A DNA stretch of 64,000 bases from Paramacrobiotus metropolitanus (lineage: Eukaryota > Tardigrada > Eutardigrada > Parachela > Macrobiotidae). Made by a program: the position numbers and the translations under genes. Positions 1,069-44,639 of the stretch are shown piece after piece. Within the stretch, counting starts at the first letter, position 1. Every line of letters begins with the position of its first letter. A model generated the notes under the pieces. The model did not search any database and was not told the DNA's origin. It saw nothing but the letters and a program-made list of their open reading frames with translations. The DNA is taken from contig NW_026570380.1 in NCBI RefSeq assembly GCF_019649055.1, forward strand, positions 62,001-126,000, read 5' to 3'.

Positions 1069-1242
1069 GGCCATAGGCGTAACTTAACATAGGTTATAGG
1101 TAGCTTAACAGTAGCTAGGCATAGATGGACCTTTGGTGTCGAAATTGGAACCTCTTCAGTTGACCGGAACATCTTCAGTTGAATGTACGGGAGTTAGTAG
1201 AATTCTAACGCGCCGTATTTCCTTTCCTTAACAGCGACAACA
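1069..1242 (+). promoter_or_regulatory. Spacer with 3' splice acceptor before ORF2 (unit 1)
   Basis: A 174-base spacer follows the pol stop. It ends in a pyrimidine-rich run and TTCCTTAACAG, with AG at 1233-1234, eight bases before the ORF2 ATG at 1243. This is a good 3' splice site, which suggests ORF2 is made from a spliced subgenomic RNA as env is in retroviruses. The CATAGG-type repeats near 1066-1110 resemble those upstream of the next acceptor. Confidence 0.5.
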
Positions 1243-3381
1243 ATGTCAAGCCGACAGCGTAACGACCAACCTTCCAGCGGATCTAACAGCGGACGCAGCG
1301 GATCTAACAATAGATCGCACCCGTATCCGACACATCATCGCTCGACTTCGCGATCGGATAACTCGCGGTCGGCCACACAGACGCCGGCTCAGCAGGTAGA
1401 AAACCCTAGCGCTAATGTCACAGCTAATGTATTAGCAGGTCTTACGGTCGGGTCCGGACGCGGCCCACAATTTCGACCAATACCCCCGCAGATCCTGCCA
1501 CCAAACACAGCGGTCGACGACACCGGCTGCTTATGGAACCTTACTACGACGACGAGTCAGATGACTCCGGTAACGGCAACTGACCCACATGGTCAATCGT
1601 ACCGCTGGCCGGTTCCGACGACATTGGTCGGACCGACCTATCCAGCGCCGACAATGGCGACTGGAATACCGAACATACTCGGACCAGTTTACCCGGTACC
1701 CACAATGGTACCAGGGTTGGTGAACGTAACGGGACCACCTTACACGACGCCGACCATGGCGCCGGTCAGAACGACCTTCGTGGGACCCCTGTTACCATAC
1801 GCACCATTACCGTCACCACCCGAAATGATGTCACCGACCAGACTGGCATCAATCAGTATAATCGGCCCGGACGGTACTATATCGCCACCAAGGCCGATAT
1901 TAGTGTCAACAGTACCGGGACCGTTCTCACCGCCGGTCTCGCCAACTCGACTCGGATACCCGAGACAACCGACTCTCTGGGGAAATCCGACCATGGCGCC
2001 ATACTCGACGAACCCGTCAAATCAGTATGGAAGTTTGGCAGGAGGGCAGCCCACACAGGGTTTTGCACCGACGACGACCACACAGGTCGTATCGTCAATG
2101 CCTCCACCGCCGATACCGCCCCGGGTAACATTGCCGGTAAGCGGTCAGCAGAGAACTGAAACGCCGCGAGAATTGCGACGCCAAGTGGAAATCGCCCAGT
2201 CTCAAATCAAAAACTTGGAGGATTCATTAGGGGCGACAACAGCCTCAAACCCTGACCACTCCGAATACCGATTTGCATTGTTACGGCAGGTTGGAGAACT
2301 CCAAGCCTTCATCAATGGCAACTACGACCTGATCCGGAACAAGGAAGGGATAGCTCAACTGACGGCTAATCCCCAAGGAACTGCGTCGACACCGACCACA
2401 CAGGTCGGTACGTCGACAACCGTCCAATCGGACTTAACTCCGACGACCTCCGCTGTCCAACAGACGATCAGCCGAGCGCCGTCATTAGCGATCGGAAAAC
2501 TGAGGGTTCAACGGGAGGACGCCCTAAAACAAGTGGCGGAATACGATCAACAGATGAACGACCTCCCAAGAACGGTCGATAACTACGACCACGAAATGAG
2601 ACGACTCAGCCGACAAGAGGCTTACCACCGATCCAAGGTGGCCAACTTGGAGGAACAAATTCGAACTGAAGAATATGCCCTCAGGACTCGACAGGCACTA
2701 CCGGGAACATCGGTGACGACCACACAGGCCGTCATCGACGAGGAAACGAGACTCGCCCGGCTGGAAGACCTTAGAGGGAAGCGCACCGATGCGATAGACA
2801 CTATCGCCCAGTTACAACAGCGACTTACCAAGCTCCTACCAACGGATCAGCACTTCTCTCAACGGATGAGAGAATTAACGAACCAAATCCAGGAATGGAA
2901 TGAATACGTCCAGGAAAGGGAGGACGAGATTCATGAAGCGGAAACATCGGCAGCTCAACCAACAGCTGCTCCGCAGGAAACGCCGACGACGACCACACAG
3001 GTGGGAATGTCGACTTCCCTTCCCACGGGAATACCCCAGCCGACCTCGGCAGGCCAACAGACGACTGTCCGGGCACCGTCGGTGGAGATAGGAACTCCGA
3101 CTACAATTAGACGAGTCTCGGCGACAGGTGGCTCACTACAGCAAAGCCGCATCCGACCTCCCACCTTCGACCCACGACTATGCCTACAAACGTTGGGAGT
3201 CGGAAGAACAGGTCCGAAGATCGAATGCGAGAATAACAGAGCTGGAACGCCAAATCCGAACCCTGGAAGCGGCACAGGCTCAACCGGGAATATCGGTGAC
3301 GACCACACAGGCCGTCATCGACGAAGAAAAGCGACTTGCTTGGTTAGAAAATGCCAAGGCCATACGCGACGAGACGTATGA
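1243..3381 (+). pseudogene. ORF2 segment 1: Pro/Thr-rich repeats then coiled coil (unit 1)
   Basis: The start is ATG 1243 (MSSRQRNDQ), eight bases after a splice acceptor. Unit 2 ORF2 also begins ATG-Ser. The first 280 residues are Ser/Pro-rich with a degenerate repeat built on GP-Y-x-x-PTMAP. From about residue 300 there are heptad-rich modules (REL-RQVEIAQSQIKNLEDSL and similar) separated by linkers of the type PTTTTQV. Each module carries VIDEE-RLARLE-like blocks, so the protein grew by tandem duplication. The frame is lost near 3125: the next module continues in frame 2, and the last 85 residues of this frame are out of register. I do not recognise a database family. It is probably a structural or scaffold protein of the retroelement. 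Confidence 0.55.
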
Positions 3382-3562
3382 CAATATACGTAAACAGCAG
3401 CAAACACTGACTCGTCTCGCGCCAGGGCATCCGGACTACCAACATACGGTAGAAATAGTACGTCGACTGACCGACTACGCCATGTCCAAAGACAACGAAG
3501 TCCGAGCGGCAGAATTAGAAGCAACCCAACCGGCGGCTGCCCCGACGTCGAAATGGACGTGA
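3128..3562 (+). pseudogene. ORF2 segment 2: coiled-coil module, shifted frame (unit 1)
   Basis: This frame-2 stretch continues segment 1. It repeats the same module seen near 2590-2990: ITELERQIRTLEAAQAQ, then GISVTTTQAVIDEEKRLAWLE, then a heptad-rich block ending PAAAPTS. The repeat match shows that the shift near 3125 is a mutation in one long reading frame and not the end of a gene. The displayed N-terminus is not a real start. The stop at 3560-3562 is followed by an open frame 1 region, so a second indel lies near 3555. Confidence 0.5.
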
Positions 3563-4092
3563 ACCAACAGGTTCCACAGGAAGCCTTGGGTGGCCCACCT
3601 CTTACAACACAAGAGATGGCACACTTCCTTCGAGTAGCTAACATAATGGCTACTCGGATCCAAGCGCGGTTAGACGACACACCACGTGGAACGGTCGAAT
3701 CTCGCACACTCGAGAGCGACCAACTGGAACTTAACGTCATTATTGGACGCCTACCGAAGTCCCCCCAGGAAATACCGACGGAACAACTACCGTTACGGAC
3801 CTTACGGAGGGAACTTGACAAACTTCGACAGCTGATGGGCAAACATCCCCAGTTCGTCCAGAACTTGGACGCAGCCGAACGACGGTCGACTAACGTGAAA
3901 CCGTCTTCAATGATAGAAGTGCAGGCCGTCGTCGTCGAGGGAAACCTCGCTCTAGACCGACGGACAGGAGCGCATGTCAACAGAAACACGGCGCCAGCAA
4001 AAGCTGGACGGATCAACAGCATCAAGCGAAGCATCCGCATTGTCGGCATACTAGCGGCAAGAGGTGAACCGACCGCTGACGATGTGGCCTAA
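3553..4092 (+). pseudogene. ORF2 segment 3: helical module ending at one stop (unit 1)
   Basis: Frame 1 resumes here with a charged helical stretch (TTQEMAHFLRVANIMATRIQARLDD in part) and ends at TAA 4090-4092. The same frame is open again straight after that stop for 6.8 kb, so the TAA is a single nonsense change inside ORF2. No catalytic motif is visible. The composition (Arg, Leu, Gln, Thr) matches the flanking segments. Confidence 0.5.
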
Positions 4093-7000
4093 CGGATCAT
4101 CAACCATGTCGAAACAATTCGACAGTTGATCCAGAGTGACCCACCTGGTAACGAACAACAAGCTCCGTCTTACCACGTGATGGCACTCCGAGCCAGGGAA
4201 GACCCCCAGGCCGCAGAAGTCTGGAAAACAATTCTGGACGGAAAACGGACCCTTATGGGAATTTACGAGGACGTCACCGAGACGACGGTGTTCGAAGCCT
4301 TGCCGAAGAACAACACCATGGTAGCCAACATACATATCGCAGAAGGTTTCATAAGAGCGGGCATGCCTACAACATTGATGGCAAGAAGCCAACTGGAAAC
4401 CACCATGGTCTACATGAAACGGGTCATTCAAGCGGAGACACGTCCGACTCCGGAAATGGAAGAACAGACTTCCAGTACACCGACGACGACCACACAGGCC
4501 GTCACGATGGACACGTCGACTAACATGGCAGTCGACCCGGAACGACTCCGAGGACTTGAATCCCTTAAGCGAAGAAAAAGCGGAATAATTAACCAGTCCA
4601 ATAAAATAAGGGAACGGATGAGAATTCTCCCAACAAGCGGAGCAAACCGTCCCCAGGAATTCCAAGTTTTGCTGAATCAGTACAAACAACTGTACGACCA
4701 GCACAACGAACTGGACATACAGATCCGAAAGGAGGAACAAGTACTCCAGATGCTAACCGCTCCACCGCAGCCGACGACCACACAGGTCGTAACGGAGGCG
4801 GCCGAAGAAGGCCTTAGGACATACATTAATGCCAAGGTCGCACTGCGGGAGGCAGAACGGATCTTGAAACAAATTCAAGAACGATCAGCAAAGGGCCTCG
4901 AACCGAACGCCCGGGAGAAACTCTCCCAACTTTCAACCCACATCAAATTAGTTCAGGACCTGATCCAACACGGACCGCGGACGACGGAAAACCACAGGCG
5001 CCTGATACAACCCGGCGTCGACCTGCTGGTTAACTCCAATAGAGAGCAACGAAGCCTCTTGGCGGCGGAACCGACGACGTGTTCAACCAGGTACTCGCCG
5101 ATATCCTCACCGGCGCCTGCTGTGTCCCCAACAACACAGATGAAGAAGGACCGCCGGCACAAGATTGAAACTACGATCTCCGACGGACGAGATCTACTGG
5201 ACGACCTCCAGCGGAAATATATCGATATAACTCCGGTCGATATAGTAAGCGTCAGAGAGGCTCGGCAGAAGATGGATCATCTGGCGGCCTACCTACGGCA
5301 AGCTGGCGATCTTGTCAACAAGGACAAGCCGACCGAAGCCGACGAACGGCAACTCCGGTCGACCATCGAGAGGATCACGGAAATCCTCGACGCCGAACCG
5401 AAGTACAGGCGGATTCCGACCCCACCACCTCGAAGACCAACACCGAATACAACGGCGGTGATGACCCTGGTACACTCGACACCGATGTCGAACCTACTCG
5501 GTAACCTCGAAGTAGTTTACCAGGCCGGTCAAGACTTGGCGGAAATCTTCAATCATCGACTTAAGGAAAACCTACCTCAACAGGAGGCATGTCGACTAGC
5601 ACGCATCGACCGAGCTCTACGGAACGACCTGGACTGGGCCGACACACTTGGCTCATGGGGAATTCCAAGCGTCGGTCCGAACCAAGACCGACTAGCCGAA
5701 GCCCTACAGTCGATAGTCGACCACATCCGACAGTACTTGGCGGCGCCAACAGAAGCACCGACCAAGCCGGTCACTCCAGAAGACGAGGAACTGACCACAA
5801 CCAATTCGCCCGGACCGGACGTTGAACTTCCACTAGTCGAAACCGCGGTCGATCAACAAGAAGTCGACCTCGAGGAAGTGGAAGATCAATACCGACAAGC
5901 GGTAGAAGTCATGGAAACACTCGCCAAACAACTTCGCGAGCTGGATCCCAAAAAGGCCTTTGAGAGCCAGATGAAAACAGCGCTGGAACAACAGCACAGC
6001 ATCTGCTCTCGACGAGTTGAAGACTTGTGGAAGATACTGGAGGCGAACCCACAAAGGGTTCGGCCCAAACCCACTCAACCACCCGAACTGACTCTGCAAC
6101 AACGCATAGCAAAGGTGGAAAACGACATTAGGCGGGCGGAACAGATCACCTCCGATCTGATGGACCAAATCGACCGGATGGATGACACCGACCCGACCAT
6201 CGCAAACATTAGGCAGGCAATGGAAGATCAACTTAGGATCTCCCGAATGCACCTGCGCGATTTAGATACAGAACTGGTTATACTACGGCAACAAATGCCC
6301 CGAATCCCGACGGTAATGCAGCCGATGGCCAAATGGAACCAGCCGACACCAACAGTTGTGCCGACTCAGCCCAAACCGGCCTCGCCGAAACTAATGGACA
6401 TCAGCGACCGACCTATGTCTCCAGCTACCGAGGCACGGATCATGGCAGCAATTCCGGACACAGGAAGTTTGCCGGTCAACGCACCGTCGTCAACGATCAA
6501 ACTGATGAACCAGGTCGAGCAACTCATCACAGAGATGAGAGCTCGCCGAAACTTCTGCGAATCCGGCAGCCAACTGGCTCACGACCTGGATCGCAACATC
6601 CTGGCTTGGGGAAGCAATGCCAAACACCTGCGTCAAATTTACCACGCAGACGCCCCCAAAACGGCCAGCATCAGACGACATATAAATTCAATTACATCTT
6701 GGTTGGAAACACAGGTCAGAAATTATGAGGATGATAAGGAAAGGACGGCGACGACTAGCCAGGCACCACAAAGGGCCACGGTTACTAGTCGAACGTCACG
6801 AATAAGACAGGTCCAGTCGACACGAAACCCGACTGCTGACTTTGTCCGACCTCCACTTCCTTCGGCACAACAAGAAGCCGACCTCGACCCAGCCACGTTG
6901 GAACGGATAAACGGAATCCTGAAGTCGGCCGACGAAGTCATCGCCGAACTCCGACGAATCATGGATGTAACCGACCAACAGAGTCCACGTTACTTGCAGA

Positions 7001-10000
7001 TCGACATCAACCTAGGCCACTTGGAAAACAATGCCAAGGAGGTCCGGTTCATACTTCGACCGACGACAGTACAGTCAGCAAAGAACCGGGAAAGGTTGCA
7101 GATCTTGACGGCCAAGATCGAGTCGTTTGTGGAAGACTTCCACTGGCGAAAAATAGCCGAAGAACAACGACGTAAGGCGAAACATCCGCCTTCGGCGAAG
7201 AAAGCAAAGGTGCAACAGTCACCAAGGAAGTCGACCAACTTGGTGGAAACGATTCCACCAGTCGATCAGGACGACCCTATGGACAATGCACCGGCACCAG
7301 CGCTCGAACACGAAGTCGACGCGATGGATACATCAGAACCGGATAACGGCCAACCAAAGCCACTGGCCCGACCGACGACCTTACCGGGACTTTCACATAG
7401 GGAGCCGAAGACGGGCGAAAATATCGAAGAGCGCGGTCCACGACGACGACTCTTCTCACCTGCACCGGTCAGAACGAAGGAACAACTCCTCGAAGTGATG
7501 AAATCGGCTCCTACATTACCCCCAGCCGAAGAAAAGGAAAGCCGATCACAAAGGTCGACCCCTTCGGATATCGAACTGTTCACTCCCAGCACCCACAAGA
7601 GGCTGATGAGAAAGGCTAAATCCCTGGACCTGCAACGGATACTTTATGAAGCCCAACTGAAGGGAGGTATCTGGAAGCAGAACATGTCCGAAGATGAGCA
7701 GACGGAACTGGCTCAGCGGATTTACGCCATCACCCAGGAAAGGGATACGGCCTTACGACGGCTGATGATACTGAGGTGTGGAAAGCAGGAGTTACGACAG
7801 CTCCCGCTTGACGCGGCAATTATAAAGCCGGTCCAACAGCTCCGCCGACCTCGCATCAACCCGGCCGCAATCACACTCGAAGTACCACCTCAACCCGGAC
7901 AGGACGTCACCGATAAAATCCCGATGACAATGTCGGACAGCAGTGACGAATCCGACCAGGGATACCGGAAAGGTTCACGGATTGAAGATGATCCGACTTA
8001 CGACGACGACCTAACATGGCAGGACGCGTTGCTACAAGATGCACGCACAGTCTCAGGTCGGTCGTCAGTATCCAGAACGGAAACGTCGACGCCACGAAGG
8101 AGCCGATCACCGGTGAAACAAATTTCGCCGAACCGGGCAGCATCCCAACCAGTACGGATGCCAAGTCAACCCGCGACGGAACAACCACGCAGGTTCACGC
8201 CCAAGAATACTCCGACTAAACCGAAGGAAACGCCGGAAGAGATGGACACGATGTCTCAGTCGAAGGCTAAAACCGGAACGGAAGCCGAAACGGTACAACA
8301 AGAGGCCGAACCGACCTCTGTCCGCTCCGGCCCGGATCTAACCATAGATGAATCTCGGACAAATGAGCCGGCAACAGAACCGGTCAGGTCCAGTAAGAAG
8401 AAGGAAAAACCTCCACAGGATTTCTCACGCGAGCTCCATAACGACATGGCCTTGCGACACGTCCAAGACCTGACTCGGTCGGAACAGGACGTTAGCGTCG
8501 ACATCGCATTCCCAGAAGATAGGGACTTATGGAACGCGTTGAGAACTCGCCGAACTAACCTAACCGGAAATACTGACGCTGTCCGTCGGGAATACGACCG
8601 ACTACCAGAAAGGATGGCCGAAGTGATGAAACGAATGGGAGAACGCTACCGGGAAGAAAAGAATCAGCCGAAGGCACTACAAGATGTCACACCGGCTGAA
8701 CCCACCGCTCCGACTCCCAAGCCGACCTCCAAGACGACATCACAACTTGTTGTCAGGATGAAAGTCCCCCAGCCGACCCGGCAACCTTCCGTACAGATCG
8801 ACGATGACCCAATGCCTAACTCGCAGGTCATCCACTCGGCCAACTCGGCTAGGCTGTCACGGAGGGAAAAGAAGAAGGCCAACAAGGAAGCCAAGAAGGA
8901 AGCGGCCAAACAGCCCGCTAAACCGGAAACCGAAAAGAAACCAACGAAGTCGGACACCAAGGAGTCGGCCAAACAGAAGTCGGATCCTTCGGTGAAGACG
9001 CCGAAACCTAACCCGGCTAAACGACATAAGTCATCTGACGACCTGGATGTCTCTGACGCCGGCCCACAAAGGACCGAGCGGAAGGACAAACCCAGTGAAA
9101 AGTACGACAGCGAAGCCGCTGAACGACGATTCCAGGACTTGATGAAGCTGGCCGGCACAAAGCCGACCAAAGCTACGGCCGAGCGACCACAGACGTCGTC
9201 TAAGCCGAAGGAGTCGTCAGAACCTCAGCCTTCGACATCGAAGCAACAGTCCGATGAAGAATCCGACCAGATCTCGGACATCGAGGGAAAGGATTCAATC
9301 TCCGACCATGGAGACGGCGACCCATACGAGGGATTCAAGGGGAACCTGAAGGAAATCTTCAGACATGCACCGGACACTGACGAATCACAGTGGCCGGCCC
9401 CCGATGACGTTCGCGAACGACTCCCCGACCAACAAGAAGAGGCAGATACGGAGATAGTACTCCGTACTGCTCGGGTACACGTCGAAGTGGTACGCAGCAT
9501 CAAAAACGCCAAAGACAATGGCACGGACATATACCAGTCCTTGGTGCGCGACCTCCTCACTAACGTCCAAGCCGACGGCGCCACATGGCTAACACATCAA
9601 CTTATGATGGCAATTGTGGCGTGGACTCTGGATTTTGGATTAGCGGTAGCCGTCCACCGACAATGGGGACGGATGGCTGAACTGCTTCCACCAGACGTCA
9701 TTAAGGCACTTAAAAGCACCTCCGGAAAGAATTCCGACGACATACCGACGAGAATTGCGAGGTGCATCGGATATATCAGGAATCCTCGTGGATCGAATTC
9801 GGTCCAAATCGCCCGTGTATACAACGTGATGTACATGAACGGCGAGGGGAACATCGACAATATCATCAACGACGTGATCACCGAAGAGATTGCATCGATG
9901 GTCGAAGGAAATACCCTTCAAACGACCAACGCGGAACGCGACCTACCCGTTCGGTACACCGTACCAGGATTCATACCGGAACAACAACGGCGTGAGTTCA

Positions 10001-10905
10001 AACTGCGGATGTCTTACGTCAACAGGGACAAGCCACCGGCGGGTACGGAAATGATTGTCGAAGAGTATAGTGAGACGGACGAACAACCGTCCGGTGCTGC
10101 AGCCGACATGCTGCACATAGCTAGATCAGCCGGACAGTCATCCCAGAAGCGGATCCAGGCTCGCCCCCGACCTCGGGCACCTTTCGAGCCGAAAACGTAC
10201 ATCAACACGGCACCGGCCCCAACAGGACGGGCCAGCACGGCAAAACAGACGCGAAGTGCGAAAGGACGGTATAAACCGAAGGACACACAGTCACTTCCGC
10301 CGACCTCGCCGATGGAAAACTCGCCGGCCCCAGAAGAGAAGACTCAACGAAAGAGTCAGCCGAAGACAACAAAGTCTAAGAAGAAGCCGGCTAAGAAAGA
10401 CGAGTCGACCACGTCCGAGTCGGAAGACGACGACGAAGACGATGAAGACTTCCAAACACCTGGAAGCGGATCGGGAAAAGACGACGACGACGAAAACGGT
10501 AAACCACCACCGCCACCGCCTTCGGCGCCCCAACAGCAGGGCGAACCGGAAATATCCGACAAACAGGATAAGCCACCGGCCGACGGTAACAATGCCGACG
10601 AGCCGATGCAGGGAGATAGTGGCGACGTCTACGTCCCCCGTTACTACGGTCAACGGATACCAGTAACTCCCGACTCTGAACCAGATCAACTCCTAACGGA
10701 ATGGGACGAAGATACCAGGGAAGACTTACCAAACGACATTCCCCCATTGGCAAACGTACGCGTAAAATATACCGGTATGATGCGCGCCCAACAGCCGAAA
10801 CCGTCCGTCTCGGAATACGACCCCGGGATGGATGTACACGTTTGCGGCTCTGAAGGCTCTCGCGACCCGTGGACCGAAGTTCGCTACGCCGAGGATCGCC
10901 TTTAA
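4093..10905 (+). pseudogene. ORF2 segment 4: giant repeat and low-complexity protein (unit 1)
   Basis: About 2,270 codons are open without a stop, which is remarkable for a decayed element. The first part repeats coiled-coil modules with TPTTTTQAV and PTTTQVV linkers. The middle is acidic, Pro/Thr-rich and disordered, with Lys-rich runs (KKKANKEAKKEAAKQ). At about 7595-7905 lies a block with QERDTALRRLMILR and INPAAITLE-PPQPGQDV. It is clearly matched in unit 2 at about 21515-21820 (QERNILIRRLMAMR, INPRAWTVE), so it is a conserved domain. Residues coded at about 9330-10050 look globular (helical, with MMAIVAWTLDFGLAVAVHRQW). The end is out of frame: the true continuation near 10832 is in frame 2. 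No known family is recognised; a structural or nucleic-acid-binding role is a guess. Confidence 0.55.
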
Positions 10906-11494
10906 ACTCCTCCAACACTGGAAGGTGAACGAAGGCGAGTGGCGACAATTGAGCTACAACAACGTCAAACGGTATTGCGAACTCGGATACCAGCGCGGAA
11001 AAATCATCCGGACACATACCAGCAACAAGCGGATGTATTACGAATTTCCACCGGACAAACTGGATCCGGCCCCCGATACATACGAGGGATGGGTACACGC
11101 CATCGAAGCGTGTATGGAAATGACTTGGCATCCGGATGGAATAACGCGCGGTGAACTGATGCACCAACTATTGGCGCGATTCGAATTCGCTCGACTGGCG
11201 AAGAAACCTCAGTTGAACGACCCGAAATACAAGCCGAAGAAAGATCCCAGAAACAAGGGATACGACCTGGCCGACGAACTGGAGTGGGTCCTGGAGAAGG
11301 GATTCTTCCAGAAACGTTTCGCCTCAAGCACGGATAACATCCAAGGCGGCCAGCGGTTCGTGGCTTGTAACCCGTCGACACACCGACATGGACATTTGCC
11401 GAAGGAACGACCGGCCACGGAGCAACAGGGTGAGTCGACCGACTCTCTCCAAGTGGACCGGCCGGAACCAACCGACCCTCCTACTCGGGAATGA
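10832..11494 (+). pseudogene. ORF2 C-terminal domain, possible tandem winged helix (unit 1)
   Basis: Frame 2 carries the continuation of the giant ORF after an indel near 10850. The compact sequence has a helix-helix-strand order: FKLLQHWKVNEGEW, NVKRYCELGYQRGKIIRT, then a wing-like KRMYYEF. A second similar block follows (GITRGELMHQLLARF, DLADELEWVLEKGFF, GQRFVACNP). This is the pattern of winged-helix DNA-binding folds, but the assignment is from secondary-structure reading only. The last 50 residues are low-complexity and run up to the spacer before ORF3. A clear equivalent in unit 2 was not found. Confidence 0.45.
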
Positions 11495-11724
11495 GGAAAC
11501 GCAGAACGCGTTGGAGGAGTTGCAGAATCGACTACCTCCACAAAACGCCACAAAGGTGTTGTCGACCAACAGAAGTCGACCTACCTCAGCGGCACCACAA
11601 AGGCGCCTCTACCAGCTCGAGAACCGACCTGGCCCGACCGTAGTAATTATAGGGTGTAAAATCATAGGACCAATAACATAGAATGCATCCGACAAAGTGG
11701 ATTGCTTAACTTTTGTTTTAACAG
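11495..11724 (+). promoter_or_regulatory. Spacer with GTAAAATCATAGG box and ORF3 splice acceptor (unit 1)
   Basis: After the ORF2 stop comes a spacer with two ACAAA-loop hairpins (11544-11560 and 11591-11607), the box GTAAAATCATAGG at 11656-11668, and a strong acceptor CTTTTGTTTTAACAG ending at 11724. The ORF3 frame begins at 11725, and a stop codon (TAA 11719-11721) closes that frame just upstream, so ORF3 must be joined to an upstream exon by splicing. Unit 2 has the same box 74 bases before its own acceptor. Confidence 0.55.
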
Positions 11725-12486
11725 CCCCGAACAGAAGCCTACACCAGAGAATGCCAACGGTGCAGTGAGAACGCAACGCCGCAGGGTAACAGACTCCCGT
11801 GCGCGCAGTGCATCATCTCGTTTACGAACGAACGGACTCCGGACACCGGAAGACAGATATACGCCCAGGCTCAAGCCCTTTATTTGAACGTCGTCGCTGG
11901 AAACCTCAGCGCGTATAGATACTTGGCTGGCCGAGAGAACCTCGTCAACCAGCTACGGGCGTACGAACAGGATAACTTGGCAGTCATCCAACGGCAACGG
12001 ACCGAGGACGAAGGTTGGAAAGGCACTCGACCTCCGGTGCTAACTGCCCGACTCTTCGAATGGCGCCAGCAACAAGACCTGGTACGCCAAAAAGAAGAGA
12101 AGGAAAAACTGGAAAAGGTCAATGAGAAGATCGCTAAAATGAAAGTTTACCCACCACCGACCCGCCATGAACCGGAAATGACGGTTCGATTACCGGCACC
12201 CACACAGGGTCGCTCGGAACCAGAACAGTTGGTCAAGGAAATACGCGAAGTTTTTGTCGGAGATCCACACCGACCACTTCAGAGCGTTGAGATAAAGATG
12301 ATGATGAATATGCCGGATGGAACCCAACAGCTGGTTACCCTGACCCCGGCCACATCCGACCAGTTGACGGCTATCCCACAAAGGGCTACGCCGGTCATTA
12401 CCCAAGCTCAACCGATAGGGTCCCAACAGATTCCACAACCTGGACCGGCAGCGCAACCAATGGCGCCGCCGCCGTCGACGACCTAA
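11725..12486 (+). pseudogene. ORF3 N-terminal half: Cys module and helical block (unit 1)
   Basis: The frame opens exactly at the splice acceptor and has no ATG near its start, so translation must begin in an upstream exon. Early residues form CQRC, 12 residues, CAQC (Cys codons at 11752, 11761, 11800 and 11809), a zinc-ribbon-like module. A helical block ALYLNVVAGNLSAYRYLAG and a charged coil (RQKEEKEKLEKVNEKIAKM) follow, then a Pro/Gln-rich linker. The same order of CX2C...CX2(C/H) and a Y-L-x-V-x-x-GN block occurs in unit 2 (22676 onward) and element 3 (43743 onward). It is not an Env protein: no signal peptide or membrane helix is visible. The function is unknown. The frame ends at TAA 12484-12486. 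Confidence 0.6.
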
Positions 12487-13899
12487 CAGCGGCGTCGACC
12501 GGCTAGAAACTTGGCAGGACACGATCTCCGACATCGAATTGGCCATGACGCTCGACACAGAATCGAGGAACAACGGGCTATTATTCGTGGAGCTGGAAAA
12601 GAATCGACCAGACCTCCACCCGGCAAACGAACCGGAGCTGAAGAAGTCAGCATTGGACTGGTCGTCGACTCAACCAGTAAGTCGAAACGGAACGTTATCA
12701 CACCAGAACCGCAGCCGGACGCCGACATGGTGGAACCGGTAGCACAATCCGAAGCACAACCCAACGAAATGGATGTGGATGTAGCCGACCAAATGGCAAA
12801 TCTCCCACAAGTGGAGGTGCCGGCTCGAGAAGACCCTCGTTACGACCTTGCCCGCCAACAGGGAATTGAGATCGTCATGCCACATCCGACCGAACGGACG
12901 AACTACATCATGAACACCATGGAGTATGAGGAACGACATCGCCCACAAGTATGGCGTATGGTCGAAAGCTTACGACAGTTCCTCGTCCGGTCCGGCTACC
13001 AGACGTTGATGGAACGACATCAATGGTTGCCGACCTTCAACATGACCAGCCATACCAACCCGAATATGGAACATCCATATGACCGAGCGAACGCCTTGCC
13101 ATCGATGACTGACCCCGCCTTGCTGAACACACCGCTGTACAGTCCGGACGGACCACGGTTAAGCCAACTAGGCCCACGCGAATGCCAGCACGATGAGCTG
13201 GAAAGCGTAGCCCAGTTCGTCATCACCGACGCACACCCGGCTTTTGTCATCACGGCGGCTCGAGCGGCTCTGGACTTGCTGCAATATCTCCCACAAGAGG
13301 AGATCGCACTGGAACAGAACAGTACGGCAGCGGTACTACGATACCTCTTTGCAGCACGACTCGGCAACTACCACTGCCACTTCACATTGTACGGACTTTA
13401 CCGGAATCAGAGGATCCCACCAGCACTGGAAACAATTGTAGCCCAACTCGGCTCGCCGATGAGAAGCATCACCCTAGCCGTCTGGTTACGGGATCTCCTC
13501 TTCGCCCACGAACGGCACGCCGGACGATACGCAATCCGGACCCAAGAACAGATCGATACGTACGACGACGCACCTCGATTTGTGAGCTGGTATCGTGAAA
13601 AGAAACACTTACCGGCCGGATTCACCTCACATCACTACGAAGAAGGGATGTCGGACGACTTGGCACCGGGCGCACGACCCTTAGCACGGAAGCTGCGAAA
13701 ACAGGGAGCCAAGGCAAAGAAGTCCCAAGCCGAACACCCTGGACAGGAGACGGAGGACGACAATGCGTCCCAACGAAGTAGTTCCGTCAGCTGCAAACCA
13801 GGGGAGTCTACATTACGACCTCATCACCGACCAAAACCGGACGATGACGAAGATGACTACTTCGGCGGTGATGCGCCGGTCGATGTGAACTTGGGATAG
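12487..13899 (+). pseudogene. ORF3 C-terminal half: conserved helical domain (unit 1)
   Basis: From 12487 to about 12700 the likely coding frame is frame 2 (VDRLETWQDTISDIELAM); from about 12700 to the TAG at 13897-13899 it is frame 1, so small indels have struck here. The main domain (about 12840-13640) has PHPTERTNYIMNTMEYEE, ITAARAALDLLQYL and VLRYLFAARLGNYHCHFTLY. It matches unit 2 (PRPHREVTDYIMKAIPY, VTAARAAMQIP, IRIFAATLGYLRSHW) and, more weakly, element 3 (VRLYFGALLGHHGCHKKL). The GN-type block resembles the block in the N-terminal half, so ORF3 may hold two copies of one fold. The tail is acidic and low-complexity. No known family is recognised. Confidence 0.55.
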
Positions 13900-16555
13900 G
13901 GGCAGGTTTCCACAAAGGAAACCTAGTCCTCGACCACAATACCCAAGAGGACAAGGAGCCAAAAACCGGCATGGTCGAGAACCGACCTGGCTGAGAATCA
14001 GCCTAGCTGAGAAACAGCACCGTCGAGAAACGACATGGAATTCGGAATGGACACCTTTCTTACGTTTTTCCTACAGATACACCATGGACGTAACAGACGT
14101 CGACCACGATCATGCCATTTAAGCCGACCACAAAGGCCGGCCGGATTCTTTGGTCTGACCCGGAAACGAGTGGTTAGACCTGGGTATCTTGGTCCTTTCA
14201 CCGTACCGGTACGTCCCCCGAAGAATCCCCTGGACAGAACTGAGCAACCGACCTCAGTTCCCCAGCATGGCATGCGCAGACCGCGGAACCATGTAGGCTA
14301 ACATAGCACATCGGAACCACATCTGCTACGGTTGGAGCCAACAGACGCCCCGACCAGCTAACAAAGCTAATCGTGGAAACCACGCCCAACACGATATTAC
14401 ATGGTGAGTCAGAAGATTACTCCGGCCAACCGACTCTGGAGTGAAGACTGAGAGGATAACGCTAGCATGGTGCTAAATACGGAACTGCGTATTTACCATC
14501 ATGCTTGCCTGGCACCCATGGCCGACTCGAGAACCGAGTAGCCGACCAGTAAACCTCGCCACCGAACAGTCGGACATTCGACTCGGATAAGCCGACCACA
14601 AAGGTCGGACTCCGAACGAACGGATTTCCAACGCCATAACGACAACAGATCGCGGTAACCACGACTGGCTACCTTACCCGACCACACAGGCCGGCGAAGC
14701 CATAAATTCGGCTCAATATGGGAAGCATAGAATCACCAGCCAGGATCTGCTACCTTAGCCGACCACAAAGGTCGTACATGCTATAGGTAGATGGTAGAAC
14801 CGCAGACCGCGGTAACAACCATGATCGCTACCGTCTAGAAAGTCGTACCGGATTCTCCGTTGAACCCAGAGTTACAGACTCTGTACCTGGAGTCCAACCG
14901 ACGTCTCCCCCGGAGGAAATCGGAACTAACCGACTCACCGGTGAACACGACTACGCGCGCCTCGAACGTGCTGCGTTTCCCTGAAGAGGAACAGCGACGG
15001 TGATTTGGCTACCGGCGTACCAACGACTCCGCCGCGACCTGCTTCCCCATGACTCAAATGGAACATCCTAGGCAGACCGTACTAGCGGTTACGACCTGCA
15101 CTCCTTGAACCAGTCCGTTGACGGAGGACAACTGCCCGCAACAGTACCGGCCAGCTGTTCTGCGTCATCGGCAAGGAATGAAACTCCCGTGGACAAGAGT
15201 CACCTACCCCAACAGAAGTGGCTAGGCGTCTCTGGTTCGCGACGAAAAATGACGAAGTGGATCTCATCCGACCTCAGGACCCTCGCATGTGCATGAAGAC
15301 GGATCCTCGCCGGCAACTAGACCCGGCCATATTTAAACCAAAGAGCTTGTTTCGTGAGCTGGGACCACAAAGGCCCCTTTTCACCACAAGCGTGCATGAT
15401 TGCCTGATGGAGCGAGAACTGCTCGGCCAACAGACGCCACAGCAACACAGCCACAGGAGAAACGGAGTGGGGCTGCCGAATGTCCTTTTGCCAGTCCGAA
15501 CTGACCAAAGGATATTCAGACACCGGAAACCCAGTCAACTGTAGCTGGATCGACGGCACACTCGGAATTGAACCGACCGAACGGAGGTCGGAAATGTACC
15601 GCAACAAGTCGGAAGAAACAACAACCAGTCGGAAACCAACCTCCTAACGAAAGAATACGTCTTTTGGACGGACGGAAACACGTTTCAACCGACCAAGTAG
15701 GAGTCGATAGCCGACCTCCGACCTCCAACATGGATAACCGACCAAGGTCGGATATGGATGATGACCGACAACAGGTCGGCTAAACTGATGACTAAATGAA
15801 AGACGAGGTCGGATAGAAGAACGCGAACATCGTCAGTTACCTCGGTTGACCATCGAGGAACGAAATTTCCGACCACCCACCTTATACCATTGCAACCGAC
15901 CAATAGCTGGATAACATTATGACCGATCACAGGTCGGATCGGCACAACGGAATGCCGACCAAGAAGTTAACGGATGGAAATGCTACTCCTAGCTACAAAG
16001 GCTTAAGGCAGTAGACAACCGATTCTATTTCCACCGTAGGAACACGAAATTTCCGACCGGACCTTCGAGCCAGTTCGACTCGGATGAACCCTAATCAGGC
16101 TCGTGGTAGCAGATTGAACGGTTTTAACCGATCACATTTTGAACGGAATTGCTGTACTCAGCAACCACAAAGGTTGCATGACACGAGTATCGGTTTTTCC
16201 CGACCTGACTTCGGAATTCGGAACTTAGCCGGATTTCCATGCCGCCGGTCGACTTACCGGTAGGCCGACCTTGGTCAACCAACCTCGGTCTAACTCCTCC
16301 ACATAGAGAGGATGCCTCGGCATTCGCAACTGCGACAGTGCCTCTCCATTCGCAACAGACGGATGCGAGTCGGAAGTAAGTGTTTCACCGTGTTTACCCG
16401 ACTTATGTGAATTTTACCGGCCACGACGGATAACCCGAGAACTGACGCCTCGGATCCAGTCTACCGGACAACATTGGACAGGAGACCCCGTGGACTCAAC
16501 GCCCCGTGGAAGTCATCCTAGTCGGAATAAAGCCCCCGGATAGATTTTGCATTTT
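13900..16555 (+). other. Long non-coding 3' tail of unit 1
   Basis: There is no supportable gene in this stretch: frames are short and stop-rich. Its composition is still that of the element, packed with CCGACC and GGTCGG words, often as near-palindromes (CCGACCAAGGTCGG at 15749, the hairpins at 13904, 14592, 14760 and 16161). Because codon use cannot explain this bias outside genes, it points to a DNA- or RNA-level property of the element. It may be a long 3' untranslated region between ORF3 and the last exon. Confidence 0.5.
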
Positions 16556-16999
16556 TCTAGAATTCTTTCCTAACAAACGGAATTGTATTTTTCTAGTTAG
16601 ATCTCTTTAACAGATCTGTTTTGTTTTAACTTTTGCTCACATGAATCGTGTGATTAAATTTTATTGCATATTTTTCTTTCGCGTTGTATAAGACTTCATA
16701 ACATTTCTCCTTTTTACATTGTTCTCCGATGCCAACCGAAGCAAGAAGCCAGCCAACAGACGCATTTTACCGGTCCAACGAAACGCCCGAGCGACCTCCG
16801 GATTTTCGGCCGTGAGCTGCTTGCCTCTCACGGGTCTGGAAGGAAAAGATGGGACGGTCAACCGGACACCGGACTCCCACGGCTAGAGGACGCGCACCGG
16901 CGACCCCACACTGGGTCCAACCGGAGAGCTGAGCGATACACTGGTGCGGTACCGAGTCGGAGCATCCTTCGCAGGAACTCGGATTCCCGCCCAGAGGCA
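16556..16999 (+). other. Last exon region before the 3' LTR (unit 1)
   Basis: An AT- and pyrimidine-rich stretch (16556-16730) is followed by a GC-rich segment with an open frame. That frame reads CQPKQEASQQ and ends SDSRPEAYQA just before the LTR. The matching segment of unit 2 (25978-26210) begins HRPKKPHQT after a clean splice acceptor and ends SNSRPVACQ. The paired position and similar ends suggest a conserved terminal exon, coding or not. In unit 1 the acceptor AG is not clear, so it may be decayed. Confidence 0.4.
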
Positions 17000-17574
17000 T
17001 ATCAGGCGTACGAGCCTGTGCGTGGTGCTACGCCCACAAGTGGCGTACTAGCACTCACTTACATGCCATTCGCCTCTCTCTTGTACGTACGTGTGCTGCT
17101 GCACTGCACTCATCCACTGAAGTGGATATACCGCGTGCGCACACACTGCTCTGAGCATACTTGCTCTCTCGTTCCTCTCTCGCCGTATGACTCAGCGCTT
17201 ATACGCTCGCGTTGGATAGAGTCCAGTCTGCGCACAGCATCACACAGCTGAGAGGGCCGCATCACGCACACTGTGGCCGCCAGCGTCATTCACGTTGGGA
17301 CCGCTCAAGAACGCTTCTAGCAACAGTTTCTAGATTCTGCCATACTGGCATTGTTCTTTCTTCCTGCTATTACGCAGTATTGTCAGCCCTTTATTGTGTC
17401 AATAAAGACCTCTGTGAGCTCCTCGCGCTTGCCTGTTACATAAGCGAGGGGAAAAGAGATGCCGTTTGCCTTGTACCCTGCATTTTACTGGGTAATCCTG
17501 CCATAGTAGCACGCAATTAGCAAGGTAATAAAGAAATGTTTGCTGCAAATTTCAAATTTTACGATGACCTGACA
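17000..17574 (+). repeat. Probable 3' LTR of unit 1
   Basis: The bounds are placed at TATCAGG (17000) and CCTGACA (ending 17574), a 7-bp inverted pair with one mismatch. The left end follows CCCGCCCAGAGGCA, nearly the same sequence that precedes the LTRs of unit 2 and element 3. A polyadenylation signal AATAAA lies at 17401-17406. There is no second copy in the window to confirm the ends, because the 5' part of unit 1 is off the left edge. The left end begins TA, not the usual TG, which may be a mutation. Confidence 0.5.
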
Positions 17575-20659: not shown

Positions 20660-21496
20660 CGACCAGACCCAGTGGCGGTGCCAACGGCGCTGACCACTAC
20701 ACATGCACCAGTTGCCTCAACATCGGCGGACCCAACTTTGGTCCAAGCCCCAACAGTGGCCCCAGCACCAATCGTGCCTAGGCCAACGTCAAGTCAACCC
20801 GTGGACACTGCCGTACCCGCTACCGCGGACGACAGTATGGAAATCCCACCACAAGAAGCTGAAACGGACGTGAGCATGCTCGACAAAACTTTCGAGCTCT
20901 CGCCAGACGAGCCGGCCCAAGAGTCAGCATCAGTCCAAACGGCTGGTGCAACGACAAGTCCAATGGTCGTCGATGAGCCAACGTTATCATCAGACATTAC
21001 GCCCACGCCAAACCGAATCGAAGGCGACACTTCAGGCGGCACTTTAGTCGTCCGGCCAACGGCCAGAAAATCGTCCGGAGTAAAGCCCGCCACACCGGAG
21101 ACAATGGCGACGTCAGCTACAACTGGTGGCCCGCAGTCGCCAGATTTAAAACGAAGAAACGGACCCCTCCAGAAGCCGGAAGCCGCCTTCACAACGGTCA
21201 CTCCCAGCATGGACAGGACAACCAATGGACTTAGAGCTTCCCGGTCCTACCAGGCCGGACCGTCCATACTTAAACCTATGGCTGCCCAACCGGCTTTGAC
21301 ACTTCGTGGTCTACCGACCAAGAAGAAGTCACCACCGAAGAACTTCCCCGGGAAAGCCCATGTGCTCTCACCACTGGAAGAGCGGCCAATCCCATCAGGG
21401 ACAACGGAACCTTTTGCGGGACGAGCCCCAGAAGAGGCATCGTTTTCGGTTGACCCCAACGGGCCCAACCAGCCAGTATCAGATGGACCCGCATAA
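20660..21496 (+). pseudogene. ORF2 acidic Pro/Thr-rich segment (unit 2)
   Basis: Same frame as the preceding segment beyond one stop. The product is disordered, rich in Pro, Ala, Thr and Ser, with acidic patches (DDSMEIPPQEAETDVSML) and a short basic stretch (PTKKKSPPKNFPGK). It parallels the long disordered middle of unit 1 ORF2. The frame is lost close to 21480, where the conserved domain continues in frame 0. Confidence 0.45.
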
Positions 21497-21941
21497 TGAA
21501 CTGGTTGGCGAGATCATGGAAGTTGATCTACGCTTAAACCTCACTGAAGAGGACATGCGCCAGCGGATACGCGCCGGCGATCCGACCTTGACCGAACATG
21601 AGATTGACCGCACCAAACGAGGTTGTCAGTTATTGGTCCAGGAACGGAATATCCTCATCAGACGACTCATGGCTATGAGAAGCAAAAGCCAGGCCCTTCG
21701 CCAGCGCAAACTGCGCGGCGAAATCATCGAACATGCGATGTACATTCGAGGGCCACATATTAACCCAAGAGCTTGGACAGTGGAAACGCGCCCAAGACTA
21801 GGCCAGCCAGTGGAAGACCAACTCCCACCGGAGGAGGTCGAATGCGATGAGGAAATTCCTCAGTTCGCGGCAGCCTACTATGGCGTCCTGTCCAGCGAAG
21901 ACGAGGAGGATTTGGATAAAGACGTCCAAAGGGTCTTGTAG
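21306..21941 (+). pseudogene. ORF2 conserved domain (QER-RRLM block, unit 2)
   Basis: The meaningful part begins near 21480 (NELVGEIMEVDLRLNLTEED). QERNILIRRLMAMR, an LRQ-containing stretch and INPRAWTVE-RPRLGQPV align by eye with unit 1 at about 7595-7905 in the same order and spacing. This is the best evidence that the ORF2s of the two units share descent. The first 58 codons of the open frame overlap the previous segment and are out of register. The stop at 21939-21941 is followed by more in-frame sequence. Confidence 0.55.
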
Positions 21942-22571
21942 GAGACCGCACGGGCCAAATCTCTTCTACCGAGGAGATCGCCCCGCAAAAGTCGGTTTCC
22001 AGAAAAACGGGCTTCTCCTGGACGCGCCACATCACAACCGGCGCGTATGCCGAGTATGCCGGCCCCAGGACCAGCACCTCCCCGGTTCACACCGATCCGG
22101 CCAGGCAAATCACCAGACAAGTAGAAGATGGATACGTCATCTTCCCAACAGCCGGTCATGACCATAGCGGTGGAACGGATCCCGGCACCAACGGTGGCCG
22201 TGGATTCTACACTTGACGAAGTGCAAATCACCGTAACCGCACCAGCATCCTTGGTCCCGGAAACAGCCAAGAAGGCCATCAAACGTCCGACCGAACAGGT
22301 GGAAGCAGATTCGGCCTTAATGCCTATGAGTACTTTGAGTCCAACGAAGCAGAGGCACCTTGTGGCCCACGCCGAGCATAATGACCGACGGCAATATCCT
22401 TACCTCCTCAGAAAGATACAAGAGGCTAAGGACCAGAATAAGCCGGAAGATTACGAAATGTTCACCGAAATGCTTCGCCGGCTATGGATTCCACCAAGAA
22501 AAAGCAGAAGCGGAAGTCTTATCACCAGTGACCCAGCATACAAGTTGCAGAGGGGGGGGGGCGGGTTGTAA
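21942..22571 (+). pseudogene. ORF2 C-terminal segment (unit 2)
   Basis: The frame of the conserved domain continues with a stop near 22116, then reads SSSQQPVMTIAVERIPAPT and a helical end (QYPYLLRKIQEAKDQNKPEDYEMFTEML in part) to TAA 22569-22571. A run of ten G at 22552-22561 lies at the very end and may have shifted the frame. The helical end sits where unit 1 has its possible winged-helix domain, but I cannot align the two. An internal ATG at 22128 exists but is unlikely to be a true start. Confidence 0.45.
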
Positions 22572-22675
22572 AATTCATAGGGACGTAAAATCATAGGGCG
22601 TAATTATCACAGGGACCAGTCTCCGAAGTGGACTTCACCAGTTTTCTGCATGTTTCATTTCTGTTACCACAGAGA
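22572..22675 (+). promoter_or_regulatory. GTAAAATCATAGG box and ORF3 splice acceptor (unit 2)
   Basis: The box GTAAAATCATAGG occurs at 22585-22597, identical to the one in unit 1, with a degenerate extra copy just before it. A pyrimidine-rich tract and CTGTTACCACAG follow, with the acceptor AG at 22671-22672. The ORF3 ATG is at 22676, four bases after the acceptor. The matching layout in two elements supports a spliced ORF3 message. Confidence 0.55.
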
Positions 22676-23330
22676 ATGGGACTTACCCCGCAGCTGAAGT
22701 ATGGATCAGAATGCGCGGACTGCAAACGGAACAGTTTGGACTTGTCCGGCCGGAGGGAAAACTCTCGACGGGAGTATTTTCCCTGCGCGTACCACTTGCG
22801 ACCCGGTTTCCGCGATGAAAGCGAAAGAGCCTATTGCTTCTACCTAGAAGTGTTGAGAGGCAACTTCTTTGCGTACTGCCACATGCCCAGCCGAGAGGGA
22901 CGCCACTTTCTCCCCCTACTGAGGGATCATGAACAGGTAGAGATCCACGATCTCTATATGCAGCGTAGCGGCGAAAGACTCCCCGGCTGGAGCGGCATGG
23001 GCGCACAGCCGCCAATTCTCAGCCAATTGGCTTTAGAAAAGAAGGCAGAACGAGATCATCAGGGCGCTGCCAAACGGCCGTCACGAAAACTCATGACCAG
23101 TCCCGCCAGCGCCGGCCATCGCCAGGCTCTCACCCCGACGGGCATGGGGCGTCAACTTTGGCTACATACGACCAGTTTATGGCCGCCATCAACAAACAGA
23201 TGGTGGACCAGGTGGCCAAACAGCTGATTGAAGGAGGACTGTTGGATCCCTTAAAAGGCCAATATGACCGGCACCTACTCAACAGTAGGCGCCCGCGCAA
23301 CCGGCACCGCTACTGCGGCTGCCAGATGAC
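22676..23330 (+). pseudogene. ORF3 N-terminal half: Cys module and helical block (unit 2)
   Basis: The start ATG 22676 is chosen because it follows the splice acceptor directly. Residues 13-40 form CADC, 20 residues, then CAYH: the same zinc-ribbon-like pattern as unit 1 and element 3. CFYLEVLRGNFFAYCHM is the conserved helical block. The frame-2 reading runs to TAA 23225-23227 but the coding signal passes to frame 1 near 23150 (YDQFMAAINKQMVDQVAKQL), so one indel has occurred there. No membrane segment or signal peptide is present. Confidence 0.55.
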
Positions 23331-24848
23331 TTGCGCTATTACATCGAGAACCGACACCAGGACCAGACCGGCCACCAGACTCGTGGCCGTCCTCAGGAGC
23401 GCCCGCCACAGACTTGGACCTCGCCTGGAAAGCGGAATGAGGAGCATGGCCTGGTTGCCTCCCGCACCAATAAGAGGCCCGAGCGAACCGTTAGCTCAGT
23501 GGCCCAGAACATCAGCATCCATGTCCCAATGGACACGGATCCCGCACCACCGTCATCGGACCCACCGGCCCGATCTGACGCTGGCACCAGTACGACAGAC
23601 TTCGACCCATATAAGTATGGGGCCGACCAAGGCGTCAACATCTGCCCACGTCCCCATCGGGAGGTGACGGATTACATTATGAAGGCCATCCCGTACCCAC
23701 GGACTAAATGGGCCCAGATTGACGCCATCATCATGGACCTGCAAAACTTTGTCAGGTCGTCCGAACTCGAACGGGAGTTCCAGCGAAAGGACTGGCCCCA
23801 CACCTTCAGCATGGCTGAGCACATTGCAAATCGTGAGTGATACTCGATAGTCCGTGACAATGCACTATCGTGCAGCACGGATGTGAACCTGTTGAGCGAA
23901 CCCATTACACGTCCGGACTGGAATGATTTGTGCGAACTGCACATTCGCGATGACCAGTTGGATCTCGCCAAGTATCTTGCTCAGTGCGTCCTACCGGATG
24001 CGAAAGCCAGTTATCTGGTCACAGCAGCACGGGCCGCAATGCAAATCCCACGCAGACCGGAAAACTACGAAGAGGCCCCAGCAGGGACCTATACGTACAC
24101 ATGGAACGGAACGGTCATTCGCATCTTCGCGGCCACACTTGGCTATCTGCGAAGCCACTGGGAACTTGAGGTTGCCTGCCGGCAAGGGAAGATCATCCCT
24201 CAACTCCTCACCCATGTGGCCCTGCGCGGAAACCTGATCCACGAGATCGAAGCAGGAGTTAAGATCCAGAGTGCACTGAACACTTTCAGGAGTCACACTA
24301 AGGATTACCTTTACCGCCAGCCGGATAACCATGACCTCGCAGCCGAGTCGTTCGTTAACCGAACGGCCGCGCAAAAACTTCCAACGAAATTTCGATCTCA
24401 GGGCTCGGCAGCATCGTCTTCGCAGAACCAGTCTCAGGCCGGCCAATCCGGTCAAGAAGTCCAGCCAGCCACCATCATGGGTACAATCCAGCGGTTGTTA
24501 CCCTCGCCCAACAAACGTGGCTTACGGCCATGTAAAGTCTACCTTACCGGACCTTATTCCATGGATCTTAACCGGATTCCCCGGATTGGCTCTGGCTTAG
24601 CGGCTTGGACCATGAATTTGGCCTGGCCATCCCAGACCATCCGACGGAGTCCACCGGACCGAACTCGGCGCGACGCTAAATTCCCCGGCACGGAAGAGAT
24701 TCAGCGCCCAGAAGGTGGCGACGGCCCGCATGGAAGTTACGATAAGCTGTGGATAAGCCATGGCCCGCATAGAAGTTGCGACAAGCCGTGGACCAGTCAT
24801 GGCCCGCATAGAAGTTGCGGCAAGCCGTGGCCAAGTCCTGGCCCATAG
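23331..24848 (+). pseudogene. ORF3 C-terminal half: conserved helical domain (unit 2)
   Basis: Frame 0 begins with a basic linker and then the conserved domain: PRPHREVTDYIMKAIPY, DLQNFVRSSELEREF, an in-frame TGA at 23838-23840, YLVTAARAAMQIP, IRIFAATLGYLRSHWELEV. All blocks align in order with unit 1 ORF3. After about 24500 the sequence degenerates into a repeat-coded tail (SHGPHRSCDKPW) made by the 39-bp tandem repeat, so the functional end was probably earlier. It is broken by one nonsense change but otherwise well kept. Confidence 0.55.
24723..24839 (+). repeat. 39-bp tandem repeat, three copies
   Basis: Three head-to-tail copies of 39 bp begin at 24723, 24762 and 24801 (each starting GGCCCGCAT), with a partial fourth. 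The unit length is a multiple of three and keeps the ORF3 frame open through the repeat. It lies at the end of ORF3 of unit 2. Confidence 0.75.
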
Positions 24849-32508: not shown

Positions 32509-32884
32509 TGTTAGGGATGACGCTAGTACGTCACCATCTCCCGTGCATATGCAGTACTTATTAGCATTAACACGTACGTCTTATCATTACCTGTTGCACC
32601 GTATTAACCGTGTTCAGCACTTGGCTCGATAGCCAAGACAGGTACAACGCAGTACACAGAAGATCAGTATTACGCTGTTGCGATAACACTGAGCTTGGAA
32701 GTTCTGATCCGCTGGGTGTTTGTCAGAGAACTTTAGTTGAGAAGTTATGATCGCACAACTCTAGAATTTCTTATGATTACGGTTTTGACTAATAAAAGCG
32801 TATCGGAAGGTGGACGGTGTTTCTCTCGTAGATGTTCATAGGAAATCGTTCTTCTTCCTAGCCTGCCCCGTGGCATGGCTACCA
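32509..32884 (+). repeat. 5' LTR of element 3
   Basis: It starts TGTTAG and ends CTACCA directly before the primer site. AATAAA lies at 32791-32796. It aligns without gaps over 376 bp with the 3' LTR, about ten mismatches by eye, roughly 97 percent identity. One mismatch is in the terminal repeat itself (CTACCA against CTATCA). Confidence 0.95.
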
Positions 32885-32896
32885 TGGTAGCAGAGT
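32885..32896 (+). other. Primer binding site, initiator tRNA-Met
   Basis: TGGTAGCAGAGT follows the LTR without a gap and matches the complement of the animal initiator tRNA-Met 3' end. It confirms the orientation and the LTR boundary. Confidence 0.9.
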
Positions 32897-36374: not shown

Positions 36375-36386
36375 GCCATTACTAAA

Positions 36387-37922: not shown

Positions 37923-37981
37923 GGGCGGCAGGTCCTGGCACAGCCCAACCCAAACCACGTAAACCGCCAGATAAACAGCAT

Positions 37982-38323: not shown

Positions 38324-38387
38324 AACCGACATTTGATAAAATAGTACTAATTCTGGACAGGATTTCCTTAAACAAGCAGCGTACAAA

Positions 38388-38999: not shown

Positions 39000-39011
39000 A
39001 GCCACAGTATT

Positions 39012-44442: not shown

Positions 44443-44639
44443 TGAAAAGCATGCTGACCCGTACATTGAGCTCTCTGGACCGCTTTCTGGCGTATTCCGG
44501 TTTGTTGGTGGAGATGCAGTCTGAAAAGTATAACTACCATGATGATCGTCCGAAGAAGGGATAACTCGATATCCGGTATGGTTATGTTCGCAGGAGTGGC
44601 ATGTCTTCAGCATTAAATCCTGAGAACTTTGAACACAGA

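Follow-up and report, generated by a model that had tools for sequence, protein, structure and literature searches.

A conserved Cys-motif protein of Ty3/Gypsy elements in Paramacrobiotus metropolitanus is apparently reached by splicing and is tentatively proposed to export unspliced element RNA

Complex retroviruses are characterized by splicing that is regulated and by a protein devoted to export; HIV-1 Rev itself is made from spliced RNA. The env genes of gypsy-type elements and errantiviruses likewise occupy a post-pol position and are expressed from a spliced message. Among Gypsy elements, a spliced post-pol regulator of export has been described for Cer1 of C. elegans (PMC10309623). This protein, termed CERV, is needed for the export of unspliced gRNA from its Ty3/Gypsy element; it is encoded by an ORF after pol and made from a spliced mRNA whose first exons lie in the gag frame, and its C4-type Cys region is essential (PMC10309623). 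Extra ORFs are also already known from giant Gypsy elements, Burro and Ogre being examples (PMC6431247). What appears to be new at the present locus is an ORF, here called ORF3, that would be reached by splicing from the first exon of another ORF, ORF2, together with genomic copies from which the intron is missing.

The window, that is, the whole 64-kb stretch of P. metropolitanus DNA that was analyzed, corresponds to positions 62001-126000 of contig C160 (NW_026570380.1) in a genome of 170 Mb. Three ORF3 stretches had been predicted in it, in units 1 and 2 and in element 3, with Cys motifs whose spacers measure 12, 20 and 6 residues, respectively. Both the positions of the stretches and, from the translations, the spacers were borne out. 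However, the three stretches had also been taken to code for protein as they stand, and all three copies are in fact disrupted, unit 1 by an in-frame stop and unit 2 and element 3 by changes of frame. The corresponding features, in window coordinates, are as follows.

11725..13899, + strand: unit 1 ORF3 exon, without a Met ahead of the Cys motif; interrupted here by an in-frame TAA (12484-12486)
11752..11811, + strand: unit 1 CX2C-X12-CX2C, likely zinc-binding to judge from the translation; its first three Cys are invariant in alignments
12826..13650, + strand: C-terminal conserved region of unit 1 ORF3, helical by low-confidence prediction
22676..24848, + strand: unit 2 ORF3, with stops and a frameshift; pieces 22604-23224, 23289-23837 and 23841-24845
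22712..22795, + strand: unit 2 CX2C-X20-CX2H, from the translation
43743..45436, + strand: element 3 ORF3, broken; pieces 43686-43985, 44633-44971 and 44975-45433
43758..43799, + strand: element 3 CX2C-X6-CX2C, from the translation

In two alignments, the first three Cys are invariant in 6/6 and 5/5 rows, and the fourth position is either Cys or His. The GN core and the pattern FxAxLGxxxxH are also invariant in the six-row alignment of open ORF3 copies. The protein further possesses a variable linker and predicted helical regions and, in the unit-1 family, an acidic tail.

The relationship of the three ORF3s had previously been judged by eye, and their DNA had been described as so diverged that similarity is seen in protein only. 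In agreement with the latter, self-BLASTN of the window at E 1e-10 returned no match of one ORF3 to another. At the protein level, BLASTP between open relatives of the three types gave E values of 9e-35, 3e-7 and 1e-7, and profile comparison, in which the type-2 side was a single sequence and the type-3 side two rows, was significant for all three pairs (E 2e-34, 2.2e-6 and 1.3e-6), while the reversed controls were not (0.15-0.55). The N-terminal Cys/GN block taken alone gives a weaker match between unit 1 and element 3 (BLASTP 0.008; profile E 0.09). By these comparisons, the ORF3s of units 1 and 2 and element 3 are homologous and constitute three subfamilies. Neither of the outcomes named beforehand as speaking against such a family, an absence of profile matches or a clear hit to an Env, Gag or host protein, was encountered, and the proposal of one protein family common to diverged Gypsy-type elements, and without the hallmarks of Env, is supported.

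All three types are found elsewhere in the genome. The C-terminal half of unit-1 ORF3 has at least 129 scored matches (492 candidates) and the N-terminal half has 152; unit-2 ORF3 gave 159 match rows, with several rows per place, and element-3 ORF3 gave six matches. An open frame of at least 700 aa, with a match free of stops, is present in 58 of the 129 listed unit-1-type matches to the C-terminal half. For the unit-2 type, a frame of at least 600 aa occurs in 22 of the first 66 of the 159 rows, and three of the six element-3-type matches have open frames of 578-582 aa. Among 25 unit-1-type copies (300 pairs), dN/dS lies between 0.11 and 0.20 in every dS class. This set comprised open-frame copies only, including the spliced copy L017 described below, and left out duplicates (L022, L045), shorter frames (L023, L025, L034) and members of other subfamilies (L057, L059, L060). 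Picking open frames biases the result somewhat toward constraint, but in our judgement this alone cannot yield ratios so low. The selection claimed in the original prediction is therefore upheld, and the ORF3 of the unit-1 family is, on the strength of these ratios, under strong selection against amino-acid change.

When compared with 5.8 billion proteins, unit-1 ORF3 returned one match, LOC129596996 of P. metropolitanus (70% identical), and the protein search with element-3-type ORF3 matched isoform X1 of LOC129598553 from the same species; NCBI lists the two ORF3 proteins simply as uncharacterized host proteins. Apart from these two models, no relative was accepted from Pfam, the PDB or the protein databases, and none was found in viral contigs; the searches returned no relative from beyond P. 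metropolitanus. No description of these elements was found in the open-licence literature.

The three ORF3s had been placed after pol in three LTR elements. For element 3 this description holds on both counts: it is a 13.9-kb Gypsy element bounded by an LTR pair, its ORF3 directly follows integrase, and no ORF2 is seen between the two. In units 1 and 2, by contrast, ORF2 lies just upstream of ORF3, and the LTRs are established in part for unit 1 and not at all for unit 2, whose pol gave no match within the window with the pol proteins used. Units 1 and 2 are thus not simple gag-pol-ORF3 elements, since they have ORF2 in addition.

32509..32892, + strand: 5' LTR of element 3, TG..CA; 372 of 384 aligned positions are identical to the 3' LTR
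36327..43223, + strand: element 3 gag, protease, RT, RNase H and integrase, in pieces; Retrotrans_gag is just below cut-off
46067..46448, + strand: 3' LTR of element 3, paired with 32509..32892
1243..10905, + strand: unit 1 ORF2, huge and low-complexity/helical, with in-frame stops between 3379 and 4092
9400..10080, + strand: conserved C-terminal domain of unit 1 ORF2, common to unit 2 and other copies
16050..17440, + strand: likely 3' LTR of unit 1, with limits from similarity only
21459..22487, + strand: C-terminal domain of unit 2 ORF2, 27-28% identical to the unit-1 family (E 2e-16 to 2e-20)

ORF2 has no Pfam family above cut-off. Its C-terminal domain, which is present also at three further loci (L044, L047 and L049), matches neither ORF3 nor Gag in profile comparison. 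Two protein families, ORF2 and ORF3, are pointed to by these elements. At the start of the window only pol remnants of unit 1 are left, followed by ORF2, ORF3 and the likely 3' LTR. A partial 98% match to this LTR lies upstream at C160:50748-51187, and the distance from one LTR remnant to the other, about 28.7 kb (C160:50748-79440), is probably the extent of unit 1. About 1.8 kb of pol is probably deleted from it, and its size is near that of the giant Burro elements.

The Burro elements of planarians are similarly Gypsy-type, with a length of about 30 kb and extra coding capacity. They differ in that their extra domains are part of one polyprotein, accompanied by accessory ORFs (BIR, BCL2, ankyrin, Env-like); the comparison is one of descriptions, and nothing resembling ORF3 is described in the accessible portion of the source (PMC6431247). 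The Ogre elements of plants, which are again likened by description only and belong to other hosts, are large Gypsy elements with extra ORFs of unassigned function (PMC6431247).

In all three units, a 3' splice-site-like sequence adjoins ORF3, and the ORF3 starts given by the original prediction fall on such a sequence or at most 3 nt from it. In unit 1, TTTTGTTTTAACAG directly precedes ORF3 at 11725. The features relevant to splicing are listed below.

1235..1395, + strand: unit 1 initiator exon, after the 3' splice-site-like TTTCCTTTCCTTAACAG; equals exon 1 of the gene model P0001 and of spliced genomic copies
1396..11724, + strand: putative intron of the unit 1 ORF3 message, 10,329 nt, GT..AG; contains nearly all of ORF2
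22653..22672, + strand: unit 2 3' splice-site-like sequence TTTCATTTCTGTTACCACAG, with an ATG at 22676, 3 nt after the site
43726..43740, + strand: element 3 3' splice-site-like sequence CATTTGTTTTTGTAG, with an ATG at 43743, 2 nt after the site

The initiator exon of unit 1 has its ATG at 1243 and 51 codons (1243-1395, phase 0), and ends in the donor CAG/GTAGAA (the slash marks the exon boundary); it opens ORF2 and, through splicing, would open ORF3 as well. The NCBI model P0001, which is itself a prediction, has the same arrangement, with the exon MSGRHRH...PLPQ from the start of ORF2 spliced onto ORF3. Its junction runs from CCGCAG/GT to TTTTGACAG/ACTCGT, the acceptor being that of its own locus (L015); the donor sequence was read in another copy (L042). 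Among the open unspliced unit-1-type copies, a Met before the first Cys is absent in 27/27, and the acceptor AG is retained in 26/27, as read by eye from the rows; the exception, L008, has lost the AG although its ORF3 is open. Since the Cys motif of the unit-1 family has no Met ahead of it, the first CX2C would be kept only if translation starts upstream of ORF3, and the exon common to ORF2 and ORF3 provides that upstream start.

The genome also contains copies in which the intron is gone. The exact spliced junction is present in six places, and allowing 1-3 mismatches added none; in the backward-sequence control of this search, a single match appeared when up to 3 mismatches were allowed. 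In L017, the exon is joined to ORF3 at the exact junction, with the pre-exon sequence upstream and the intron missing. The same holds for all four spliced copies with upstream DNA that were examined (L017 and L061-L063), each of which has kept the pre-exon sequence and lacks the intron. Since these copies possess the junction without the intron, they indicate that spliced RNA was made and reverse-transcribed. Among the matches listed, at least two of the six spliced copies (C46, C99) have LTR-like sequence a few kb downstream, and they therefore look like copies of the element and not like pseudogenes made by a LINE. Three of the spliced copies were compared along 88 nt of ORF3, and each proved slightly closer, by 1-2 nt, to an unspliced copy than to its spliced counterparts, which, in so short a stretch, hints at more than one spliced-copy event. 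As judged from genomic sequence, then, ORF3 is reached by splicing in the unit-1 family. For unit 2 and element 3 we infer splicing from the 3' splice-site-like sequence and the ATG just behind it.

Of the described systems, CERV provides the basis for a proposed function. The original prediction knew of no Ty3/Gypsy accessory protein of this type; CERV, being post-pol, spliced, Cys-rich and not Env-like, shows that one has been described (PMC10309623). Like CERV, ORF3 lies between pol and the 3' LTR, right after integrase in element 3 and after pol and ORF2 in the unit-1 family. Both have a spliced mRNA whose first coding exon or exons come from an upstream ORF (here in the unit-1 family, from genomic copies and the gene model). 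Both also have a C4-type Cys region, are not Env-like, have no relatives found outside the host group, and are large, with 517 aa for CERV and 780 and 490 aa for the NCBI models of ORF3 (PMC10309623). However, there are also several differences. The exons of CERV are shared with gag and those of ORF3 with ORF2; the Cys loop of CERV lies in its M domain, whereas the Cys motif of ORF3 is at the start of the exon; and CERV has a GTPase-like G domain, the two proteins being likened by description (PMC10309623). Export of unspliced RNA, as carried out by HIV-1 Rev, is also the job proposed for ORF3 (PMC10309623). Compared with Rev, ORF3 is much larger; in the sequences scanned no conserved pair of basic patch and NES was found, and it has a Cys motif instead.

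A CERV-like role is proposed on the grounds that ORF3 agrees with CERV in position and mode of expression and has a Cys motif under constraint; membership of a CERV family is not claimed for it. We suggest, at somewhat less than even confidence, that ORF3 is the main exon of a spliced Ty3/Gypsy message and that its Cys-motif product is a nuclear exporter of unspliced RNA. Default splicing would give the ORF3 protein first, and the intron-retaining genomic RNA must then escape host retention of unspliced RNA; because the element RNA would possess a functional intron, its unspliced form needs an export route. The ORF3 protein would provide this route from the nucleus for the RNA that retains the intron, in the manner of CERV in Cer1, with the binding of zinc or RNA by the Cys motif, the nuclear location and the export activity all being putative. 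A more specific proposal, which we hold more tentatively still, is that these giant elements, by way of splicing organized as in retroviruses, encode in ORF3 a new and unrelated family of CERV/Rev-like exporters; the 10-kb ORF2 would serve as the intron of ORF3, splicing would choose between the two, and occasional reverse transcription of spliced genomes would give rise to copies without ORF2. If the export role is true, a second animal phylum would have a different protein in that place, suggesting that LTR elements evolve control of this kind repeatedly. The idea lends itself to testing with RNA data, since the genome preserves fossils of the spliced RNA and numerous open copies, and since the three subfamilies have diverged.

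Several observations weigh against the CERV-like role. The AlphaFold models of ORF3 are all-helical but of low confidence (pLDDT 44 and 42), and among the seven sequences scanned, short NLS-like basic patches vary and a leucine-rich NES pattern occurs in only one. Furthermore, the exon is shared with ORF2 and not, as in CERV, with gag, one open copy of 27 (L008) lacks the acceptor AG, and spliced post-pol expression would fit Env-like or virion proteins equally well.

With respect to Env, ORF3 lies where a gypsy-type env does, between pol and the 3' LTR, and its spliced expression is likewise that of such a gene; ORF3 might thus be a degenerate or divergent envelope protein. Yet the highest 19-residue Kyte-Doolittle mean among 33 ORF3 sequences was 1.37, and the usual threshold for a membrane helix is about 1.6; by hydropathy, therefore, no membrane-helix segment is present, as the original prediction had stated. 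There is no Env Pfam hit, the start of P0001 is polar, and, unlike the Env of Gypsy elements and errantiviruses, ORF3 has a Cys motif at its start. An envelope origin is accordingly considered very improbable.

ORF3 might instead be a component of the particle with a structural or assembly role, such as a second Gag-like protein or one that packages the genomic RNA by binding it through the Cys motif. The Cys motif, predicted helices and variable linker, and the acidic tail of the unit-1 family, are in keeping with such a protein, as is expression from a spliced message of its own, a mode found also in late retroviral structural genes. However, ORF3 has no Pfam Gag hit, and the elements encode a Gag of their own, to which ORF3 has no profile match (hhalign probability at most 0.17%). 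This last comparison is of limited power, since two Gags that are expected to match reach only 7% (E 0.005) in the positive control. Alternatively, ORF3 might counter host silencing, for example by the germline small-RNA or chromatin machinery. This would explain its conservation, as an accessory protein strongly constrained in many copies is plausible for large multicopy elements, but the sequence indicates no silencing target and no domain match. The virion or packaging role and the anti-silencing role are each rather unlikely in our estimation, and both are nevertheless serious rivals to the export role.

A captured fragment of a host gene, derived in part from the Mediator kinase CDK8 and now acting as an adaptor, was considered as well. 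The profile of the C-terminal region matches residues 237-354 of human CDK8 collinearly (E 2.2e-4 in the PDB, where the CDK8 matches all come from a single protein in 11 constructs), the joint ORF3 profile gave E 2.1e-4 at a probability of 46% in hhalign, and the best of 2000 shuffles reached E 0.2. Conversely, none of three single ORF3 sequences hits CDK8, omission of one row shifts the E value to between 0.0004 and 0.04, the separate subfamily profiles give E 0.009-0.39, and the full-length profile gives E 0.25. Moreover, there is no kinase Pfam hit, the resemblance being confined to a partial C-lobe profile, and the CDK8 of the tardigrade itself, represented by an exon piece of 54 residues, reaches only E 0.43. 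With the single sequences, the omission of one row and the piece of the animal's own CDK8 all failing to support it, this lead was not relied on, and descent from CDK8 is regarded as improbable.

Further splicing may take place inside ORF3 of the element-3 type. Relative to L057:250-1956, the isoform X1 model (P0002) lacks 29 internal ORF3 residues and has a different end, and this comparison suggests an additional intron there. Several RT matches in the genome lie in open frames of more than 3,200 aa (for example on C13, C52 and C78), beyond the length expected of a Gypsy pol. Finally, the interval that separates unit 2 from element 3 contains an inverted repeat of about 380 nt (window 26211-26593 / 31178-30804), the arms of which are 89% identical and 4.2 kb apart, and which is likely another mobile element.
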